Shown one piece after another: positions 17,647 through 26,738 of a stretch of 64,000 nt of DNA. Numbering within the stretch: position 1 is the stretch's first letter; every line of letters starts with the position of its first letter. Location: positions 744,001 to 808,000 of the forward strand of contig NZ_CP041637.1 in assembly GCF_007197735.1 (NCBI RefSeq). Direction: 5' to 3'. The notes beneath the pieces were generated by a model that was not told where the DNA came from, did not search any database, and saw only the letters and a program-made list of their open reading frames with translations. Both the position numbers and the translations under genes were made by a program. Source of the DNA: Formosa sediminum. GTDB taxonomy: Bacteria; Bacteroidota; Bacteroidia; Flavobacteriales; Flavobacteriaceae.

Positions 17647-17876
17647 ATTTATAGACCTCTATTAACCTATTACCTTCTCTCTCTTTTAATATTTATATCA
17701 CTAAACACATTATTTAGTAAACTTAATCTCTAAGAGTACGAATGTTATGCCAGCTTCTAAATATCTACAGTCTAAATAATCAATAATTACTGTATTAAAA
17801 TAACACATATCCTATCTCATTTTAGTACCACACATCCTGTAAAACAGTAAAACTATACGTGATTACCCTAAAACTA
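17647..17876. other. Gene-free stretch before paralogue 1
   Basis: A+T-rich, with stops in all frames. I see no RNA gene or repeat in it. The shared paralogue control region follows immediately. Confidence 0.5.
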
Positions 17877-17982
17877 TACTAAATTAACCCAACAGCCAAG
17901 TAACATTAATTTAACAGTTAAAATACTATACAATATTGCCAATATCGATGTTTTCTAACTTTAAGATCGCATATATATTTGC
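17877..17982 (+). promoter_or_regulatory. Shared control region, paralogue 1
   Basis: Order: TTAACC (17885-17890), 26 bases, AGTTAA (17917-17922, one change from GGTTAA), then the core AATATCGATGTTTTCTAAC (17942-17960), 18 bases, and TATATTTG (17975-17982). The TTTG of the other copies is TTTC here, so this promoter may be weaker or more dependent on the activator. Confidence 0.75.
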
Positions 17983-18008
17983 AGTGTTAATCGTTAAGAA
18001 CGACAGTT

Positions 18009-18614
18009 ATGAAAAATATAATTACACTTAGTATTTGCTTGTTAGTAATGACAACTAGCTTTGCAACAAATTACACAGACATCTCCTTCTCTAAAAAAGG
18101 TGATGGATCAAAGATGGAAATTATATTAACTCTAAGTGATGTTAAAGCTGGTCAAGAATTATATATTAAAGATGAAAATGGTGTAATTCTATATAATCAA
18201 ACAATACAAAAATCTGGTATTTACAATAGTAAATTTGACATATCTGCTTTACCTGATGGAAATTATCATTTTGAACACGATAAAGATGCTTACACAAAAT
18301 TAATTCCTTTCACCGTTGACAATGGAGAGGTTAACTTTGCTAAAGCTAAAGAGAAAGTAATTTACAAGCCGATAGTACGTCTTAAGAACGATTTCATATA
18401 TGTTTCTAAATTAGATTTAGAGAAAAAAAATGTAAAAATCAATATTTATTATTCAGCTAAAGATAAAGGTGAATTAAAATTAGTACACTCTGATGAAATT
18501 TCTAATACAATTAAAATAGAGCGTGCTTACCGTTTATCTGAATTACATAAAGGAAATTACAAAGTAATCATCGAAAGTGACGGAAAAAGTTACATCGAGA
18601 ACTTTAAAATTTAG
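18009..18614 (+). CDS. Secreted two-domain protein, paralogue 1 of 5
   Basis: 201 residues. A signal peptide (MKNIITLSICLLVMTTSFA) precedes two similar beta-sandwich-like units. Unit 1 (about 35-105) has the pattern LxxVKAGQELYIKDENGVILY, a DISALPDGNYHFEH turn, and IPFTV. Unit 2 (about 115-201) has LSKLDLE-type strands and ends LHKGNYKVIIESDGKSYIENFKI, in part. The L-x-x-G-x-Y-x-V pattern recalls T9SS C-terminal sorting domains and DUF3244-like proteins, but I do not recognise a named family. It is the most divergent of the five copies together with copy 5, and stands apart from copies 2-5, with the amidohydrolase genes between. Function unknown; export is clear. Confidence 0.85.
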   Translation: MKNIITLSICLLVMTTSFATNYTDISFSKKGDGSKMEIILTLSDVKAGQELYIKDENGVILYNQTIQKSGIYNSKFDISALPDGNYHFEHDKDAYTKLIPFTVDNGEVNFAKAKEKVIYKPIVRLKNDFIYVSKLDLEKKNVKINIYYSAKDKGELKLVHSDEISNTIKIERAYRLSELHKGNYKVIIESDGKSYIENFKI

Positions 18615-18666
18615 TTTTAAATAGATAGTATTTAGTTATACTATTGAATTTAGTTAGTTTGTTTGT

Positions 18667-18700
18667 AAGAGTGAAGCTGGTTACTTCACTCTTTTTTTTT
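18667..18700 (+). terminator. Terminator of paralogue 1
   Basis: Stem AAGAGTGAAG with CTTCACTCTT, 7-base loop, T run after. It has the same GAGTGAA stem motif as the terminators of copies 2-5. Confidence 0.9.
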
Positions 18701-19040
18701 GCCTACAAATCACACTTCTTCAGCCCTAATATTAGCATAAAATATTTATACAATTAAATTATAAAAACATCTAAATCTTCTAATCTATTTTTAAAAGAAA
18801 TTAAAAAACTACACGTCTATAACCTTTTAAAATTGTCTAAGGATAAAAAATTAAAATTTTAACCAAAATAACGAATTTCAATTTTTTCCCTTCCTAATTA
18901 ACAAAATCTATAAAAACCCACACAAAAAAAAGTAATTAGCAAATACACTTCATTTAGATTACATATATCTTTAGATAAAGAATTTTTAGAAGATTTTTTT
19001 ATAAAAAGCTTAATATTTAACCCTAAAAAAAGCGTATTAA
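18701..19040. other. Gene-free leader region of the amidohydrolase operon
   Basis: A very A+T-rich stretch with long A runs. A TATCTTTA near 18968 is a weak -10 candidate for the downstream operon. I see no shared paralogue control motif, no RNA gene and no repeat. Confidence 0.4.
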
Positions 19041-21989
19041 ATGAAACAAAAATTACTAATCATGCTACTAATTATAACTAGTGGCAGCTTTTTACATGCT
19101 CAGGACTATTTCCCCGAAAGTAAAGGTGTAAAATCTACTAATCACAACTACACCGCCTTTACTAATGCCAAAATTTACATTACTCCAACACATATTATCG
19201 AGTCTGGTACATTATTAATTAAAGATGGCAAAGTGGTTTCTGCAGGAGAACAAATTACACTTCCAAAAAACACTGTAATAATTAATGCTGAAAACAAAAC
19301 CATATACCCATCGTTTATAGATGTATTTTCAGATTTCGGTGTATCTAAACCAAAACGAGAAGGCGGCCGAGGCAGATCTGCACAATATGATGCAACTAGA
19401 GATGGATTTTATTGGAACGACCATATTATGCCAGAAACAGATGCTGTTGAAGTGTTTAAATACGATAACAAAAAAGCCAAAGAATTACTTGAAGCTGGAT
19501 TTGGAGTTGTAAACACTCACTTACAAGATGGAATTGCTCGTGGCACAGGAGTTTTAGTTACATTAAACGAAAATGGCACAAATGCAGAACGTATTTTAAA
19601 CGACCGCTCTGCACAATATTTTTCATTTACAAAAAGTGTAGCAAAATCTCAGTCTTACCCAACCTCACTAATGGGAGCAACAGCCTTATTACGCCAATTG
19701 TATTATGATGCAGATTGGTATGCAAAAGGAAACATTACAGTTACAGATCGCTCTTTAGAAGCTTTAAACAATAACAAAGGACTTAAACAAATTTTTGAAG
19801 CTGGTTCTAAAAGTAATGTAATAAGAGCAGATAAAATTGGTGATGCTTTTGGCATTCAATACGCCATTTTAGGAGGCGGTAATGAATACGAAATGGTATC
19901 TGCTATTAAAGGAACCAATGCCCAATTAATTCTTCCATTAAATTTCCCAGACGCTTACGATGTATCAGATCCATTTAGTGAAACTTTTATTTCATTATCT
20001 GATATGCGCCACTGGAACCAAGCTCCAGCAAACCCAAAAATATTAGCAGAAAATGGTATTATATTTTCTTTTACATTAAAAGATTTAAAGAAAACTAAAG
20101 ATTTTAAAGACAAATTATTAGAAGCTATAGCCTACGGATTACCTAAAACTAAAGCTTTAGAAGCCTTAACCACTATTCCGGCTCAAATATTAGGACAATC
20201 GGATAAAATAGGAGCATTGCAAAAAGGTATGGAGGCTAATTTTATTATTACATCGGGTGATTTTTTTGACAAAGAAACTATAGTTTACGAAAACTGGGTA
20301 CAAGGAAAAAAGAACTTGATTAAACCTACAAATAGCAGCGATATTAGAGGTGAATATACTATTACAACTCAATCTAAAGAATTTAAATTGTCTATTAAAG
20401 GTACTGCAGACGATCCTAAAGCAACAATTAAACAAGACTCTACCACCCTAGCTTCAAAATTTAAATTTGAAAACAATTGGTTAAACATGTCTTTTACAGA
20501 CAATGCGTCTGAAACATATAGATTTTCAACATTAATACCTTCTCAAACAGATGCTTTTAATGGAAAAGTGATAACTTCTAATGGCGATCAAAATTTTAGT
20601 GCTAAACTAACAAACGCTTTTGTGGCTAAAGAAGAGAAAGACAAAAGCAGCGAACCTACAGAAATAGTACCAATAACATATCCAAATATCGGATATGGAA
20701 ACTTAGAGCTTCCCAAACAAGAAACTATACTTTTTAAAAATGCTACAGTTTGGACTAGTGAAGATGCTGGTATTTTAAACAATACAGATGTACTTGTAAA
20801 AGATGGGAAGATTGCAAAAATTGGTAAAGATTTAGCTGCAGGAAAGGCCAAAATTATAGATGCAACAGGAAAACATTTAACAGCAGGAATTATAGACGAA
20901 CATAGCCATATTGCAGCATTATCAATTAATGAATCCGGGCACAATTCTTCTGCTGAAGTTAAAATGGAAGATATTGTAGATCCAGACGATATTAGTATTT
21001 ATTATGCACTAGGTGGTGGTGTAACATCTTTACAATTATTACACGGTTCTGCAAATCCAATTGGAGGACAATCTGCTATTTTAAAATTAAAATGGGGAGA
21101 AACAGCAGAAAACATGATTTACGACAATTCGCCTAAATTTATAAAATTTGCTTTAGGAGAAAATGTAAAACAAAGTAATTGGGGAAGTACAAACAGATTT
21201 CCACAAACACGAATGGGTGTAGAACAGGTGTTTATTAATTATTTTCAACGTGCTAAAGAATATGGTGAAAAGAAAAAAAGCGGAGCACCTTATCGCCATG
21301 ACGAAGAAATGGAAACATTGTTACAAATTTTAAATGGCGAACGTTTTATTAGCTGTCACTCATACGTACAAAGCGAAATTAACATGCTTATGAAAGTTGC
21401 AGAACAGTTCGATTTTAAGGTAAATACTTTTACACATATTTTAGAAGGCTATAAAGTAGCCGATAAAATGGCAGAACACGGTGTTGGAGCTGCTACATTT
21501 AGTGACTGGTGGGCTTATAAGTTTGAAGTAAATGACGCCATACCTTATAATGCAGCTATAATGCAACAACAAGGAGTTACAGTTGCTATTAATAGCGACG
21601 ACCAAGAAATGATTAGAAGACTAAATCAAGAAGCAGGGAAAACAGTAAAATACGGAGGGATGACAGAGTTAGAAGCTTGGAAAATGGTTACAATAAACCC
21701 TGCAAAACTTTTACACTTAGACGACAGAGTTGGTAGTATTAAAAAAGGAAAAGATGCAGATCTTGTACTTTGGGACAGCCACCCAATGTCTATTTATGCT
21801 AAAGCTGAAAAAACACTTATTGAAGGTGCGGTATATTTTGATATTGAAAAAGATAAGCAGCAACGCGAGCGCATAAAAAAGGAACGTGCACAATTGGTAG
21901 ATTTAATGCTTCAAGAAAAATCTAAAGGCAAAACTACACAAAGACCAACCGGAAAGAGAAAAGAAGAAATGACTTGCGAATCGCTATAA
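19041..21989 (+). CDS. Secreted tandem amidohydrolase, N-terminal unit degenerate
   Basis: 982 residues with signal peptide (MLLIITSGSFLHAQ). Two amidohydrolase units are fused. In the first (about 35-430) the usual HxH metal motif after the GxxxxPGxID strand is replaced by YPSFIDVFSDFG, so it is probably not catalytic. The second (about 565-960) keeps GIIDEHSHIAA (HxH), SCHSYVQ, FTHILEG and AINSDDQEM, the ligands of imidazolonepropionase-like hydrolases. The ending KKGKDADLVLWD is the usual composite-domain strand. Probably a periplasmic metal-dependent peptidase or lactam/amide hydrolase; substrate unknown. Operon with the next gene, 15 bases away. Confidence 0.88.
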   Translation: MKQKLLIMLLIITSGSFLHAQDYFPESKGVKSTNHNYTAFTNAKIYITPTHIIESGTLLIKDGKVVSAGEQITLPKNTVIINAENKTIYPSFIDVFSDFGVSKPKREGGRGRSAQYDATRDGFYWNDHIMPETDAVEVFKYDNKKAKELLEAGFGVVNTHLQDGIARGTGVLVTLNENGTNAERILNDRSAQYFSFTKSVAKSQSYPTSLMGATALLRQLYYDADWYAKGNITVTDRSLEALNNNKGLKQIFEAGSKSNVIRADKIGDAFGIQYAILGGGNEYEMVSAIKGTNAQLILPLNFPDAYDVSDPFSETFISLSDMRHWNQAPANPKILAENGIIFSFTLKDLKKTKDFKDKLLEAIAYGLPKTKALEALTTIPAQILGQSDKIGALQKGMEANFIITSGDFFDKETIVYENWVQGKKNLIKPTNSSDIRGEYTITTQSKEFKLSIKGTADDPKATIKQDSTTLASKFKFENNWLNMSFTDNASETYRFSTLIPSQTDAFNGKVITSNGDQNFSAKLTNAFVAKEEKDKSSEPTEIVPITYPNIGYGNLELPKQETILFKNATVWTSEDAGILNNTDVLVKDGKIAKIGKDLAAGKAKIIDATGKHLTAGIIDEHSHIAALSINESGHNSSAEVKMEDIVDPDDISIYYALGGGVTSLQLLHGSANPIGGQSAILKLKWGETAENMIYDNSPKFIKFALGENVKQSNWGSTNRFPQTRMGVEQVFINYFQRAKEYGEKKKSGAPYRHDEEMETLLQILNGERFISCHSYVQSEINMLMKVAEQFDFKVNTFTHILEGYKVADKMAEHGVGAATFSDWWAYKFEVNDAIPYNAAIMQQQGVTVAINSDDQEMIRRLNQEAGKTVKYGGMTELEAWKMVTINPAKLLHLDDRVGSIKKGKDADLVLWDSHPMSIYAKAEKTLIEGAVYFDIEKDKQQRERIKKERAQLVDLMLQEKSKGKTTQRPTGKRKEEMTCESL

Positions 21990-22004
21990 AAATTAAGAAT
22001 TATA

Positions 22005-23297
22005 ATGAAAACATATAAAAGTATATTAATGCTAGTCGTATTGTTAAGTGTATCCTTTTCTTGGGCACAACAAACGCCTGCATCTAAACAAAAGGAAGCC
22101 ATTACCATTGAAGGGGCAACAGCCCATTTAGGTAACGGCGAAGTTATAGAAAACTCACTTGTCATATTCGAAGGCGGCAAAATAACCTTTGTTGGTGATG
22201 CTAAAATGAAAATTGCCAGAAAAGGGAAAACCATAGACGGAACAGGAAAACATATATACCCAGGTTTTATAGCTCCCACTAAAGCACTAGGATTAACAGA
22301 AATTGATGCGGTTAGAGCCAGTAGAGACGAAGATGAAATAGGAGAATTTATTCCGCATGTACGCAGTTTAATAGCCTATAATGCAGAGTCTAAAGTTGTA
22401 GAAAGCATGCGTCCAAATGGTGTATTGTTAGCTCAAATTACACCTCAAGGTGGAGAAATATCTGGAACCTCATCCATAGTTCAATTAGATGCTTGGAACT
22501 GGGAAGATGCCGCTGTAAAGGTAGACGATGGAATTCATTTACACTGGCCTAGTAGTTTTAGATTTAATCGTCGAGGAGATGATAGAGGTTATAAACCAAA
22601 CGACAACTACCAAGAAAGCATTGCACAAATAACAAGCTTTTTACAAAGCTCTAAAGCTTATGGACAAACGAATGCAAAGGAAGAGCATGCTCCATTTAAA
22701 GCCATGCAAGGCGTCTTTAACGGATCTCAAAAGCTCTATATTTATGCTAATGGTGAAAAAGAAATTATAGATGCCATAACATTAGCAAAAAGTGAAGGTA
22801 TTAAAAGTATTGTATTAGTAGGTGGTTATGAAGCCTATAAAATTACAGACTTCTTAAAACAACATAATATTCCTGTTCTAGTTCAGGCAACACATAATAG
22901 ACCACGATTTGAAGATGAAGATTATGATTTACCTTATAAACTTCCAAAGTTACTTACAGACGCAGGGCTATTAGTAGGTATTCAGAATGCATCAGCAGAT
23001 AATTTCCAAACCCGAAATTTACCATTTTACGCAGGACAAGTTGCAGGACAAGGCTTAGAAAAAGAAAAAGCGTTAGCATTAATTACTGGAAACACTGCAA
23101 AAATTTTAGGAATAGATGACAGCTATGGTACTCTAGAAACTGGCAAAAGTGCTACTTTATTTTTATCTAAAGGAGACGCTTTAGACATGAGAACCAATCA
23201 ACTTTTAAATGCATTTATAGATGGGCGTGAAGTTTCTTTAGAAACACACCAAACAGAACTTTGGAAACGTTATATGACCAAATACGAAAACCAATAA
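22005..23297 (+). CDS. Secreted amidohydrolase-like protein lacking metal ligands
   Basis: 430 residues with signal peptide (MLVVLLSVSFSWAQ). The amidohydrolase composite domain is seen at both ends (ENSLVIFEGGKITFVGD, then GTLETGKSATLFL), but the HxH motif is replaced by YPGFIAPTKALGL and I see no other ligand cluster. The barrel is also short. It is therefore probably a non-catalytic partner or binding subunit of the upstream enzyme, as its constant adjacency suggests. Confidence is high for the fold and low for the role. Confidence 0.85.
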   Translation: MKTYKSILMLVVLLSVSFSWAQQTPASKQKEAITIEGATAHLGNGEVIENSLVIFEGGKITFVGDAKMKIARKGKTIDGTGKHIYPGFIAPTKALGLTEIDAVRASRDEDEIGEFIPHVRSLIAYNAESKVVESMRPNGVLLAQITPQGGEISGTSSIVQLDAWNWEDAAVKVDDGIHLHWPSSFRFNRRGDDRGYKPNDNYQESIAQITSFLQSSKAYGQTNAKEEHAPFKAMQGVFNGSQKLYIYANGEKEIIDAITLAKSEGIKSIVLVGGYEAYKITDFLKQHNIPVLVQATHNRPRFEDEDYDLPYKLPKLLTDAGLLVGIQNASADNFQTRNLPFYAGQVAGQGLEKEKALALITGNTAKILGIDDSYGTLETGKSATLFLSKGDALDMRTNQLLNAFIDGREVSLETHQTELWKRYMTKYENQ

Positions 23298-23324
23298 ATT
23301 CCAATAAACATTATACTGTAATAT

Positions 23325-23360
23325 AAAAAAGAGTGAGACAAATAATCTCGCTCTTTTTTT
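23325..23360 (+). terminator. Terminator of the amidohydrolase operon
   Basis: Stem AAAAAAGAGTGAGA with TCTCGCTCTTTTTT (one G-T pair), short loop, T run after, 27 bases past the stop. Confidence 0.85.
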
Positions 23361-23455
23361 ATGCGTTTTAAACTATATTTTAAAACTCAAAGATCAATAG
23401 AGTATATAAAAGATAATCCTAAATAAGATAAACTATAACAAATTAACCTCTACAT

Positions 23456-23561
23456 ATGCTATTTTAACCTCATAAAAGCAATACCGTAAAAAGTTGGTTA
23501 AAATAAGATATAAAGTAGCCAATATCGATGTTTTGTAACCCCTGTTATACCACTACCTTTG
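23456..23561 (+). promoter_or_regulatory. Shared control region, paralogue 2
   Basis: TTAACC (23464-23469), 26 bases, GGTTAA (23496-23501), core AATATCGATGTTTTGTAAC (23521-23539) containing the -33 TTTG (23532-23535), 18 bases, TACCTTTG (23554-23561). A second AATTAACC lies further up at 23441-23448. Confidence 0.85.
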
Positions 23562-23592
23562 AACCAGTTAAATAATCTAAAATATTTGAATT

Positions 23593-24192
23593 ATGAAAAA
23601 AATTATGACACTTAGTATTTGCATGTTGGTAGCAGCTACCACTTTTGCATCAAGTTTCGCTAGTAACTTGTCATCTAATTTTGATAGAAGAAAGGACATG
23701 GAGATTACCTTAACATTAGACAATGTAGAAGCAGGACAACTATTATATATTAAAGATACTAAAGGAGTTATACTTTATAATAAAACGTTTAAAACTTCAG
23801 GAAGTGTAAATAATACTTTCGATTTTTCTACTTTACCAAATGGTACTTATTTTTTCGAACACGAAAAATCAAATCAAATTAAAGTAATTCCTTTCAATGT
23901 AAAATCAGGAAAAGTAAGTTACTCAGATACTAAAGAAACAATCTTTAAGCCCGTAGTAAAAGTAAAAAACAACTTGGTATACTTATCTAAATTAGAATTA
24001 GATAAAGAAGATGTAACGGTTACGCTTTCATTTGAAAATGAATATAACAGCTACAAAACCATTCACACAGAAAACTTTACTAATACAGCAAACATCCAAC
24101 GCGTATACAATTTATCTGAAAATGTACCTGGAAATTACAAAGTTGTTATTAAAGCTAACGGTAGAGAATTCGCAGAATACTTTAGCATCTAA
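23593..24192 (+). CDS. Secreted two-domain protein, paralogue 2 of 5
   Basis: 199 residues. Signal peptide MKKIMTLSICMLVAATTFA, then an Asn/Ser/Asp-rich spacer and two beta-sandwich-like units with the same landmarks as copy 1 (MEITLTLDNVEAGQ, DFSTLPNGTYFFEHEK, then LSKLELDKEDVTVTLSF and PGNYKVVIKANGREF). By eye it is nearly identical to copy 3, differing at roughly one position in eight, so recent duplication or gene conversion is likely. It is monocistronic, with its own promoter and terminator. Function unknown; exported. Confidence 0.87.
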   Translation: MKKIMTLSICMLVAATTFASSFASNLSSNFDRRKDMEITLTLDNVEAGQLLYIKDTKGVILYNKTFKTSGSVNNTFDFSTLPNGTYFFEHEKSNQIKVIPFNVKSGKVSYSDTKETIFKPVVKVKNNLVYLSKLELDKEDVTVTLSFENEYNSYKTIHTENFTNTANIQRVYNLSENVPGNYKVVIKANGREFAEYFSI

Positions 24193-24217
24193 AACCTAAT
24201 TAAACTTAAAATATATT

Positions 24218-24250
24218 AAGAGTGAACTTTTACAAGTTCACTCTTTTTTT
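24218..24250 (+). terminator. Terminator of paralogue 2
   Basis: 12-bp stem AAGAGTGAACTT with AAGTTCACTCTT, loop TTAC, T run. The stem and loop are identical to those after copy 3. Confidence 0.92.
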
Positions 24251-24553
24251 GTTTCAATATTTATAATAACAAATAAATAGACGATATAAATAAACACACA
24301 GATATACTAAATCTTAAAAGCATTATTCTTTTAAAAATCCAGAAGATTACAGCTTATACAAACGACAAGATCTTTTTTTAAATACCAAATAGTTATAGAC
24401 AACCCAATTATATAAATAAATTAAAAACAATAACTATTAAACATAAGTTATGATCACCATTTTAAATAATAACATATGTCAACATTATTTACAGATAATT
24501 AATAACGTTTATTAATCACATAAAGCTATTATATAACGTATTAACTCTAACCT
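24251..24553. other. Gene-free stretch before paralogue 3
   Basis: About 300 bases of A+T-rich DNA without open frame, hairpin or repeat that I can see. The shared control region begins at its right end. Confidence 0.5.
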
Positions 24554-24659
24554 ATACTAAATTAACCCAATGCTACCCTAACTTAAATTTAATGGTTAAA
24601 ATAAGATATAAAGTAGCCAATATCGATGTTTTGTAACGCCTGCTATACTACTATCTTTG
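24554..24659 (+). promoter_or_regulatory. Shared control region, paralogue 3
   Basis: TTAACC (24562-24567), 26 bases, GGTTAA (24594-24599), core AATATCGATGTTTTGTAAC (24619-24637) with TTTG at 24630-24633, 18 bases, TATCTTTG (24652-24659). Confidence 0.87.
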
Positions 24660-24690
24660 AACCAGTTAAATAATCTAAAATATTTAAATT

Positions 24691-25290
24691 ATGAAAAAAA
24701 TTATGACTCTTAGTATTTGCATGTTGGTAGCAGCTACCAGTTTTGCATCAAGTTTCGCTAGTGACTTGTCATCTGATTTTGATAAGAGAAGAGACATGGA
24801 GATTACGTTAACATTAGACAATGTAGAAGTAGGACAACAATTATATATTAAAGACTCTAAAGATTTTATTCTATATAATAAAACATTTAAAACTTCGGGT
24901 AGTGTAAATAACACGTTCGACTTTTCTGCTTTACCTAATGGAACTTATTTCTTCGAACATGAAAAATCAAATCAAATTAAAGTAATTCCTTTTAAAGTTG
25001 AAACAGGAAAAGTAAGCTTCTCTGATGCTAAAGAAACAATCTTTAAGCCTGTAGTAAAAGTAAAAGACAATTTGGTTTACTTATCTAAATTAGAATTAGA
25101 TAAAGAAGAAGTATCGGTTACACTTTCATTTGAAAATGAATATAACAACTATAAGGCCATACACACAGAAAAATTTACAAATACAGCAAACATTCAACGC
25201 GTATACAATTTATCTGAAAATGTACCTGGAAACTACAAAGTAGTTATTAAGGCTAACGGCAGAGAATTCGCAGAATACTTCAGTATCTAA
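24691..25290 (+). CDS. Secreted two-domain protein, paralogue 3 of 5
   Basis: 199 residues, the closest relative of copy 2. Signal peptide MKKIMTLSICMLVAATSFA. Differences from copy 2 are mostly conservative (SSDFDKRRDMEI for SSNFDRRKDMEI, VEVGQQ for VEAGQL). The C-terminal unit and last 30 residues are the same as copy 2. The strand landmarks FDFSALPNGTYFFEHEK and ENVPGNYKVVIK are kept, so folding is under selection. Monocistronic. Function unknown; exported. Confidence 0.87.
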   Translation: MKKIMTLSICMLVAATSFASSFASDLSSDFDKRRDMEITLTLDNVEVGQQLYIKDSKDFILYNKTFKTSGSVNNTFDFSALPNGTYFFEHEKSNQIKVIPFKVETGKVSFSDAKETIFKPVVKVKDNLVYLSKLELDKEEVSVTLSFENEYNNYKAIHTEKFTNTANIQRVYNLSENVPGNYKVVIKANGREFAEYFSI

Positions 25291-25313
25291 ACCTAATAAA
25301 ATTCTGAATATCG

Positions 25314-25348
25314 AAAGAGTGAACTTTTACAAGTTCACTCTTTTTTTT
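25314..25348 (+). terminator. Terminator of paralogue 3
   Basis: Stem AAAGAGTGAACTT with AAGTTCACTCTTT, loop TTAC, T run. Confidence 0.92.
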
Positions 25349-25587
25349 GGCATAAACCATTCAGGAACCTAAACGTACAAAAGTTTAAGATAAAATAGAT
25401 TTTTTTCTAGTGTTTAGACCAAAGGGTTTACTAGTTGTTACTAGTAAACTTTTTTGTTAAAGAGATACAACCATGTATTTCATGTATCAGTGTTAGAATT
25501 AAAGAGTATTTAGATGCTATTTCTATAACCATTTTATAAGGGTATAACTACCTTAACCTTCATTATATAAACAATTACCCTTAACAT

Positions 25588-25693
25588 ATGCTAAATTAAC
25601 CCAACTAAATTTCTGCAGAAAAAAACTGGTTAAAATAAGATATAATATAGCCAATATCGATGTTTTGTAACACCTACTAAACGCATACCTTTG
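25588..25693 (+). promoter_or_regulatory. Shared control region, paralogue 4
   Basis: TTAACC (25596-25601), 26 bases, GGTTAA (25628-25633), core AATATCGATGTTTTGTAAC (25653-25671) with TTTG at 25664-25667, 18 bases, TACCTTTG (25686-25693). The 240 bases between the previous terminator and this region hold nothing I can identify. Confidence 0.87.
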
Positions 25694-25724
25694 AATAAGT
25701 TAAATGATCTAAAATATTTGAATT

Positions 25725-26321
25725 ATGAAAAAAATTATGACACTTAGTATTTGCATGTTGGTAGCAGCTACCACTTTTGCATCAAGTTTCGCAAACAACT
25801 TGTCATCTAATTTTGATGGAAGAAAGGACATGGAGATTACCTTAACATTAGACAATGTAGAAGCAGGACAACAATTATATATTAAAGATGTAAATGGTTT
25901 TATTCTTTACAATAAAACGTTTAAAACTTCAGGAAGTGTAAATAATACGTTCGATTTTTCAACATTACCTAACGGGACATATTTCTTTGAACATGAAAAA
26001 TCGTATCAAGTAAAAATAATTCCTTTTAATGTAATTGAAGGCGAGGTAAGATTTGCACCAAACGAAAAAATAATTTACAAGCCTGTTGTTAAAGTAAAAA
26101 GCAACACCGTATTACTTTCTAAATTACAATTAGACAAACAAGACGTAACTGTTAGTCTTTTATTTGAAGACGACAACAATTTCAGAGTAATTAATACAGA
26201 AAAATTTACAAATACAGCAAATATCCAACGTGCATATAGCTTATCTAAAAAAGCGCCAGGAAACTATAAAATTGTTGTTAAATCTAACGGAAGAGAATTT
26301 GTAGAATATTTCAGTATCTAA
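25725..26321 (+). CDS. Secreted two-domain protein, paralogue 4 of 5
   Basis: 198 residues. The first 100 residues follow copy 2 almost exactly (signal peptide MKKIMTLSICMLVAATTFA, VNGFILYNKTFKTSGSVNN), while the second unit is more divergent (KVKSNTVLLSKLQLDKQDV, SKKAPGNYKIVVKSNGREF). Such a mosaic suggests gene conversion over the 5' part of the gene. Monocistronic; exported; function unknown. Confidence 0.87.
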   Translation: MKKIMTLSICMLVAATTFASSFANNLSSNFDGRKDMEITLTLDNVEAGQQLYIKDVNGFILYNKTFKTSGSVNNTFDFSTLPNGTYFFEHEKSYQVKIIPFNVIEGEVRFAPNEKIIYKPVVKVKSNTVLLSKLQLDKQDVTVSLLFEDDNNFRVINTEKFTNTANIQRAYSLSKKAPGNYKIVVKSNGREFVEYFSI

Positions 26322-26343
26322 ATATTAGTTAAATTCAAAATAA

Positions 26344-26381
26344 AAAAAAGAGTGAACTTTTAGAAGTTCACTCTTTTTTTT
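26344..26381 (+). terminator. Terminator of paralogue 4
   Basis: 15-bp stem AAAAAGAGTGAACTT with AAGTTCACTCTTTTT, loop TTAG, T run. Confidence 0.92.
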
Positions 26382-26632
26382 ACACTTTTTAACCTATATA
26401 AAATTATAATAGTAAAACACCCACTTAAATAAGCCTTTTAGTTTAATAAATTAGTGCGCTTTTTATTAAAACAAGTAAACTTTCTCCCTCAATCTTTAAC
26501 ATCTATTTGTAAGAAAAATTTGCTATTAACAGCATTCTAATATGTGGTTAATCATTTAGTTAATTTAGTACAAATCAAAAAAACTACGTTTAGGCTAGCA
26601 TGTCCTATTATATCTAAGATTATCCAAAACAT

Positions 26633-26738
26633 ATACTAAATTAACTTAATAATTAAGCAACATTAATTTAATGGTTAAAATAGAACATAAACTAGCCAAT
26701 ATTGGCATTCTACAACAACACCTAACACCTTATCTTTG
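26633..26738 (+). promoter_or_regulatory. Shared control region, paralogue 5
   Basis: TTAACT (26641-26646), 26 bases, GGTTAA (26673-26678), a diverged core AATATTGGCATTCTACAAC (26698-26716), then TATCTTTG (26731-26738). The -33 TTTG is lost here. The 250 bases upstream of it hold nothing I can identify. Confidence 0.75.

Follow-up and report, generated by a model that had tools for sequence, protein, structure and literature searches.

Five DUF3244-type paralogues of Formosa sediminum lie behind a shared control region that is probably the operator-promoter of one distant AraC-family regulator

The window analyzed here is the whole 64,000-nucleotide stretch of Formosa sediminum DNA between positions 744,001 and 808,000 of contig NZ_CP041637.1, read on the forward strand; coordinates without a prefix are those of the window. 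It contains five paralogous genes, p1 to p5:

18009..18614, + strand: p1, DUF3244-type protein, 201 aa
23593..24192, + strand: p2, DUF3244-type protein, 199 aa
24691..25290, + strand: p3, DUF3244-type protein, 199 aa
25725..26321, + strand: p4, DUF3244-type protein, 198 aa
26778..27386, + strand: p5, DUF3244-type protein, 202 aa, counted from the ATG common to the others

In the open reading frame (ORF) listing, p5 starts instead at a TTG upstream of the shared ATG. All five products match the DUF3244 profile (PF11589) at E≤1, the best at 3.4e-6, with p1 scoring 27.4 bits against a cut-off of 25, and they are the sole members of the family found in this genome. Their N-termini indicate that they are probably secreted. 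In NCBIfam, TIGR04183, a T9SS sorting domain, is the best relevant match (E 0.0015) and is seen in three of the five members. Beyond the first 21 residues, p1 is modeled by AlphaFold (mean pLDDT 81) as almost entirely beta; a fold search with this model returned generic tandem Ig/FnIII-like matches, with TM values of at most 0.36 among the matches listed. The close relatives retrieved in the protein search were Formosa records and one MAG (Bacteroidia bacterium). The literature search turned up little on DUF3244 proteins and nothing linking DUF3244 with flavobacteria. Between p1 and p2 lie two large ORFs (19041-23297), and the model searches gave no control-region match upstream of either.

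Each paralogue is preceded by a control region composed of four sites, termed A to D, and a −7 box:

17854..17981, + strand: control region p1; A 17854-17868, B 17875-17889, C (inverted) 17916-17930, D/core 17937-17954, −7 box TATATTTG 17974-17981
23434..23561, + strand: control region p2; A 23434-23448, B 23455-23469, C 23496-23510, D/core 23517-23534, −7 box TACCTTTG 23554-23561
24532..24659, + strand: control region p3; A 24532-24546, B 24553-24567, C 24594-24608, D/core 24615-24632, −7 box TATCTTTG 24652-24659
25566..25693, + strand: control region p4; A 25566-25580, B 25587-25601, C 25628-25642, D/core 25649-25666, −7 box TACCTTTG 25686-25693
26611..26738, + strand: control region p5; A 26611-26625, B 26632-26646, C 26673-26687, D/core 26694-26711 (diverged), −7 box TATCTTTG 26731-26738

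An earlier, sequence-only reading of this DNA had placed a TTAACC or TTAACT box, a gap of exactly 26 bases and a GGTTAA or AGTTAA box ahead of all five genes between 17877 and 26738, with a core stretch and then TAnnTTTG following at constant distance. Both the paired boxes and the invariant spacing from core to TAnnTTTG were found in all five promoters. The sameness of the core is partial: it is exact in p2 to p4 and carries one mismatch in p1, but is strongly altered in p5, to the point that a genome-wide core search allowing up to three mismatches missed it. The TTTG assigned to −33 within the core, which corresponds to the second element of the flavobacterial sigma-A promoter, is likewise present in three of the five promoters, p1 having TTTC and p5 none. 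The −7 box is present in all five, with a pairwise identity of 0.988 over 28 copies from the genus, and TAnnTTTG is the form reported for the sigma-A −7 box of Flavobacterium psychrophilum (PMC9723704). The diverged p5 core (26694-26711) contains GCCAATATTGGC, a perfect 12-bp palindrome.

Within the 3.93 Mb, one-contig genome, TTAACY-N26-RGTTAA occurs at seven places, the five promoters and two others, compared to five for a backwards control, so that the bare six-base motif suggested for the search is weakly specific. Its extended form, TATNNTANNTTAACY-N26-RGTTAANNTA, retrieves the five promoters exactly and gives zero control matches, and genome-wide model searches also recovered all five control regions. 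The exact core 16-mer was tried as a separate probe of 397 family genomes; it matched in five. Of the three outside the genus, one match fell within an ORF and none had a DUF3244-like ORF behind it in the ORFs listed, and they were taken as chance.

The six-base boxes are the ends of longer, 15-bp half-sites of the form TATnCTAnnTTAACY. A and B make up a direct repeat 21 bp apart, C is an inverted copy of B, and D is a degenerate inverted site lying over the core, with its end at the −33 region of a sigma-A-type promoter. Against the 12 specified positions of the consensus, B fits at 12 and inverted C at 11 in all five promoters, while A fits at 8-10 and D at 5-6. In a matrix built from B in 53 aligned regions, C scores equal to B (15.3 bits) and A ranks third among 228 placements; the score of B by its own matrix is circular, and A, C and D alone are informative. 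Shifted along the sequence as a direct repeat, B agrees best at 21 bp (0.613, z 3.7), which fits an AraC-type operator, in which two half-sites of 15-17 bp are repeated directly about 21-22 bp apart. The 21-bp repeat of C, that is D, ranks ninth among shifts. As a full fourth half-site, D was partly supported by the matrix test: it ranks 12 of 226 by the whole-unit matrix, and a 7-base part of the half-site places B, C, A and D first to fourth of 242. Of 51 candidate axes, the dyad between B and C scores highest both in the genus set (z 4.9) and across 49 outgroup regions (z 4.35); the outer dyad pair alone comes second of 85 axes (z 1.9). If the −7 box spans −12 to −5, a placement drawn from the F. 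psychrophilum report (PMC9723704), then C occupies about −70 to −56 and D about −49 to −35. In this promoter-proximal pair next to −33, C is strong, and D is in register yet poor in its fit. The earlier suggestion of a protein seated on the inverted sites along one DNA face is plausible, with a different geometry: the unit is 15 bp, and the dyad is accompanied by the A/B direct repeat and the degenerate D.

Because the five regions align gaplessly, a constant gap in five tandem paralogues could reflect common descent alone, and orthologous loci were therefore needed to assess the proposal that spacing is under selection. Among 28 genus copies (26 from six genomes and two from an uncultured Formosa record), the 121 columns between the ATTA of A and the −7 box, both included, contain no gap, so that the spacing is kept in all 28; the TAT part of A, just 5′ of this stretch, has one extra base in two of the 28. 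In the search for relatives, four of six loci duplicated genomes already included and were not recounted, and the record holding L010 and L012 carries at least two further regions outside the 28. Mean pairwise identity is highest in the −7 box (0.99) and next in the core (0.93), followed by C (0.80), B (0.76) and A (0.75). The linkers C-D and A-B stand at 0.73 and 0.55, and the B-C spacer, the spacer before the −7 box and the far upstream sequence at 0.48, 0.40 and 0.33, compared with 0.53 at fourfold coding sites. The sites are thus conserved above the coding baseline while the two long spacers are not, and the layout is gapless in relatives; together these results support selection acting on the sites and their spacing, as had been claimed. 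At G004:C1:993924-994046 and at L017, an extra control region with an apparent truncated DUF3244 5′ end lies just upstream of a full copy.

The control region is also found well beyond the genus. A set of 28 loci from other genera consists of the best-scoring DUF3244 matches rather than a random sample, and the iterations of the nhmmer profile used these loci too. Every one of these loci has one region 25-52 bases before the DUF3244 start. They hold 50 regions on the gene strand, of which 44, some of them partial matches, are net-gapless, extending the conservation of spacing to the outgroup. Alignment A5 and model R2 comprise 39 of the outgroup regions and 14 of the 28 genus rows, the other 11 outgroup regions being short, gapped or weak. 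A gene for an AraC-family regulator is divergent within the 1.5 kb flank in 22 of the 28 loci and absent from that flank in six. In most other genera examined, the element lies between regulator and DUF3244 gene, with two −7 boxes at mirror positions. In 27 regulator-adjacent loci the regulator's own TAnnTTTG stands within a base of the mirror position, 25 of the boxes being exact and two having five of the six bases. A hint from nhmmer that the regulator promoter sits one turn closer on the other strand was ruled out by this direct measurement.

In the window's genome, the regulator is a 289-aa protein encoded at G000:C1:1038172-1039038, outside the window and 267 kb from the five genes. It is an AraC/XylS-family transcription regulator by its C-terminal double helix-turn-helix domain, matching HTH_18 (PF12833) over residues 204-282 (E 2e-22; 79.7 bits, cut-off 33.6) and PF00165 (48.2 bits, cut-off 26.6). 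For an N-terminal cupin-like ligand/dimerization domain, matches to AraC_binding (E 0.0068) and Cupin_2 (E 0.0092) are both under their curated cut-offs, and its PDB relatives include RamA, MarA, GadX and AraC.

Among 248 family genomes, DUF3244 occurs in 107, a relative of the regulator (E≤1e-60) in 148 and both in 105, a co-occurrence for which the Fisher test treats genomes as unrelated. Of those 105, 101 were scored for pairing, the remaining four being without a listed row, and in 97 of them the two genes are divergent neighbors within 2.5 kb (median start-to-start distance 232 bp). The exceptions are the window's genome, G136 (109 kb apart), and G177 and G241, where the genes are on different contigs; this count leaves out three rows for DUF3244 and a second AraC row, all from genomes already included. 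The region matched in 23 of 24 genomes with both genes, five of which had contributed rows to R2. In the other, G104, no region was found at E≤0.01, and a local search of the fetched stretch gave a partial, weak match (E 0.0026). Of 43 regulator-positive genomes without a DUF3244 match at the cutoff, five were tested, none of which gave rows to the model; in all five the regulator is flanked by the region (E 1.9e-6 to 3.6e-10), which there precedes a short ORF of 117-132 codons with an N-terminus that is signal-peptide-like by eye. Four genomes with neither gene yielded no match at E≤0.01 in three and a weak one (E 0.0072) in the fourth.

The model searches scored 105-150 candidates per genome, so some sites may be missed. 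Of 16 sequence stretches fetched in this part of the analysis, 14 were looked at, four of them by scanning alone. Matches away from both regulator and DUF3244 occur at G029:C1:488588-488700 (L188; E 6e-8), G163:C1:2238174-2238290 (L189; E 1.7e-7) and G060:C1:3231448-3231555 (L196; E 1.9e-5), and may be further targets or false matches; either the model is imperfectly tied to the locus or the regulon is wider. In the window's genome, a weak seventh site at G000:C1:3234386-3234492 (+) (L187; 28.1 bits, model positions 30-127) lies before a 56-aa ORF. Another weak site, at G003:C1:2210761-2210874 (+) (L190; E 7e-4), adjoins an ORF whose product looks by eye like a further regulator of the cupin/AraC type and which is divergent from a 326-aa ORF.

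The explanation we favor, and hold to be probable, is that each of the five regions constitutes a complete operator-promoter of the one AraC-family regulator encoded 267 kb away, the target gene having been multiplied along with its operator. Regulator dimers would bind A/B and C/D, with the C/D pair next to the promoter activating transcription, and by virtue of the mirror layout the regulator would control its own gene likewise. In the Formosa lineage, the target would have multiplied and moved together with the whole operator, leaving five promoters that would respond in trans to a single regulator and a single signal. Since the element stands beside the AraC-type gene in relatives, all five copies are probably under the control of a single distant regulator; because that gene is unlinked to the five in the window's genome, it is the conserved sites that carry the case for trans control there.

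Known systems offer partial precedents. The E. coli AraC protein recognizes 17-bp half-sites 21 bp apart, and its gene is divergent from the target. An AraC-type protein, direct-repeat half-sites and divergent regulator and target promoters are thus common to both systems; the differences here are a compact dyad between the two promoters and its copying to unlinked genes. For E. coli AraC, the sites araI1/araI2 and araO2 are described (PMC6018408). At PmtlE of Pseudomonas fluorescens, two 15-bp blocks at −72 to −58 and −50 to −36 are reported to be involved in activation by the AraC/XylS-type activator MtlR (PMC4514859). These blocks resemble each other, contain direct repeats and lie just upstream of −35, at positions to which C and D are close; the MtlR operator differs from the Formosa element, which has the mirror-image pair A and B upstream, a degenerate D, a TAnnTTTG promoter and five gene copies sharing it. 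No paper on the present operator was found among the literature matches listed.

Should the regulator bind as proposed but repress, the inverted sites would serve as a small loop or a promoter block. The roughly three helical turns between the inverted B and C would suit such a loop, and AraC itself represses via a loop (PMC6018408). However, C and D sit where an AraC-type activator binds, just upstream of −33, and the regulator's own promoter at the mirror position suggests a common mode for both genes. We consider repression rather unlikely, with the proviso that it is a variant of the favored explanation and the odds of the two overlap. A bigger departure would be recognition of the core and boxes by some other regulator or by an unusual sigma factor. 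In conservation the core is second only to the −7 box, and it makes a poor AraC half-site, as would then be expected, but the region tracks the AraC gene, the one regulator gene followed across the genomes, and the −7 box matches the sigma-A box of a flavobacterium (PMC9723704); this possibility is distinctly improbable. Last, the five regions might be alike only because of tandem duplication or gene conversion and share no regulator. This agrees with their gapless alignment and with p2 and p3 being sisters in the protein tree, yet is very hard to sustain when that tree (FastTree, read without support values) puts p1, p5 and p2-p4 on separate branches, each with relatives in other Formosa species, when half-sites, core and −7 box reach 0.75-0.99 against 0.53 at fourfold sites and 0.40-0.48 in the long spacers, and when other genera have an equal layout.

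A sixth strong control region adjoins the regulator gene itself (G000:C1:1037987-1038118 (−), L082), outside the window. Downstream of it there is no protein gene, and about 180 nt on comes a terminator-like end that resembles the p1 end by eye. Nine outgroup loci (L051, L052, L056, L059, L067, L069, L071, L075 and L076) similarly have an extra region followed by a stretch of about 150-280 nt. The longest closed ORF in these ten stretches has 22 codons, which leaves room for a very short peptide. No Rfam family reaches its gathering score within the window, and the best match in nine related loci (E 0.015) is under its own. A 26-mer from a nearly invariant 3′ block of the outgroup stretches was searched in 248 family genomes and found in 32, at 51 places (43 exact; three for the backwards control). 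Of these places, 25 come no more than 40 nt after a DUF3244 match, also just after stop codons; among the others, a DUF3244 or AraC gene is at most 700 nt away in 25 and 735 nt away in one. The window's genome and G005 lack the 26-mer in this search. The sixth copy may make a small RNA, or it may be a deletion relic.

These observations allow a broader reading of the favored circuit, tentative and in our judgment somewhat short of an even chance: a conserved flavobacterial module in which an AraC-family regulator and a bidirectional operator with mirror symmetry serve both DUF3244 proteins and a non-coding RNA transcribed from that operator. Copies that lost their coding part and kept the operator and transcript end would have given rise to the RNA, which would work in trans or adjust the mRNAs sharing its end, and the sixth operator copy in the window's genome would yield a diverged form of it. 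The sRNA Rfp18 of F. psychrophilum (PMC9723704) bears a remote likeness in being a conserved flavobacterial non-coding RNA; no relation is claimed.

What was an anonymous promoter motif can now be framed as a probable circuit with one candidate regulator, an exact operator and a target set. For Formosa, it would represent a case in which a target gene multiplied and, taking the entire operator along, parted from its regulator, and for the family it points to an apparently non-coding relative of the same transcript that is kept in several genera.
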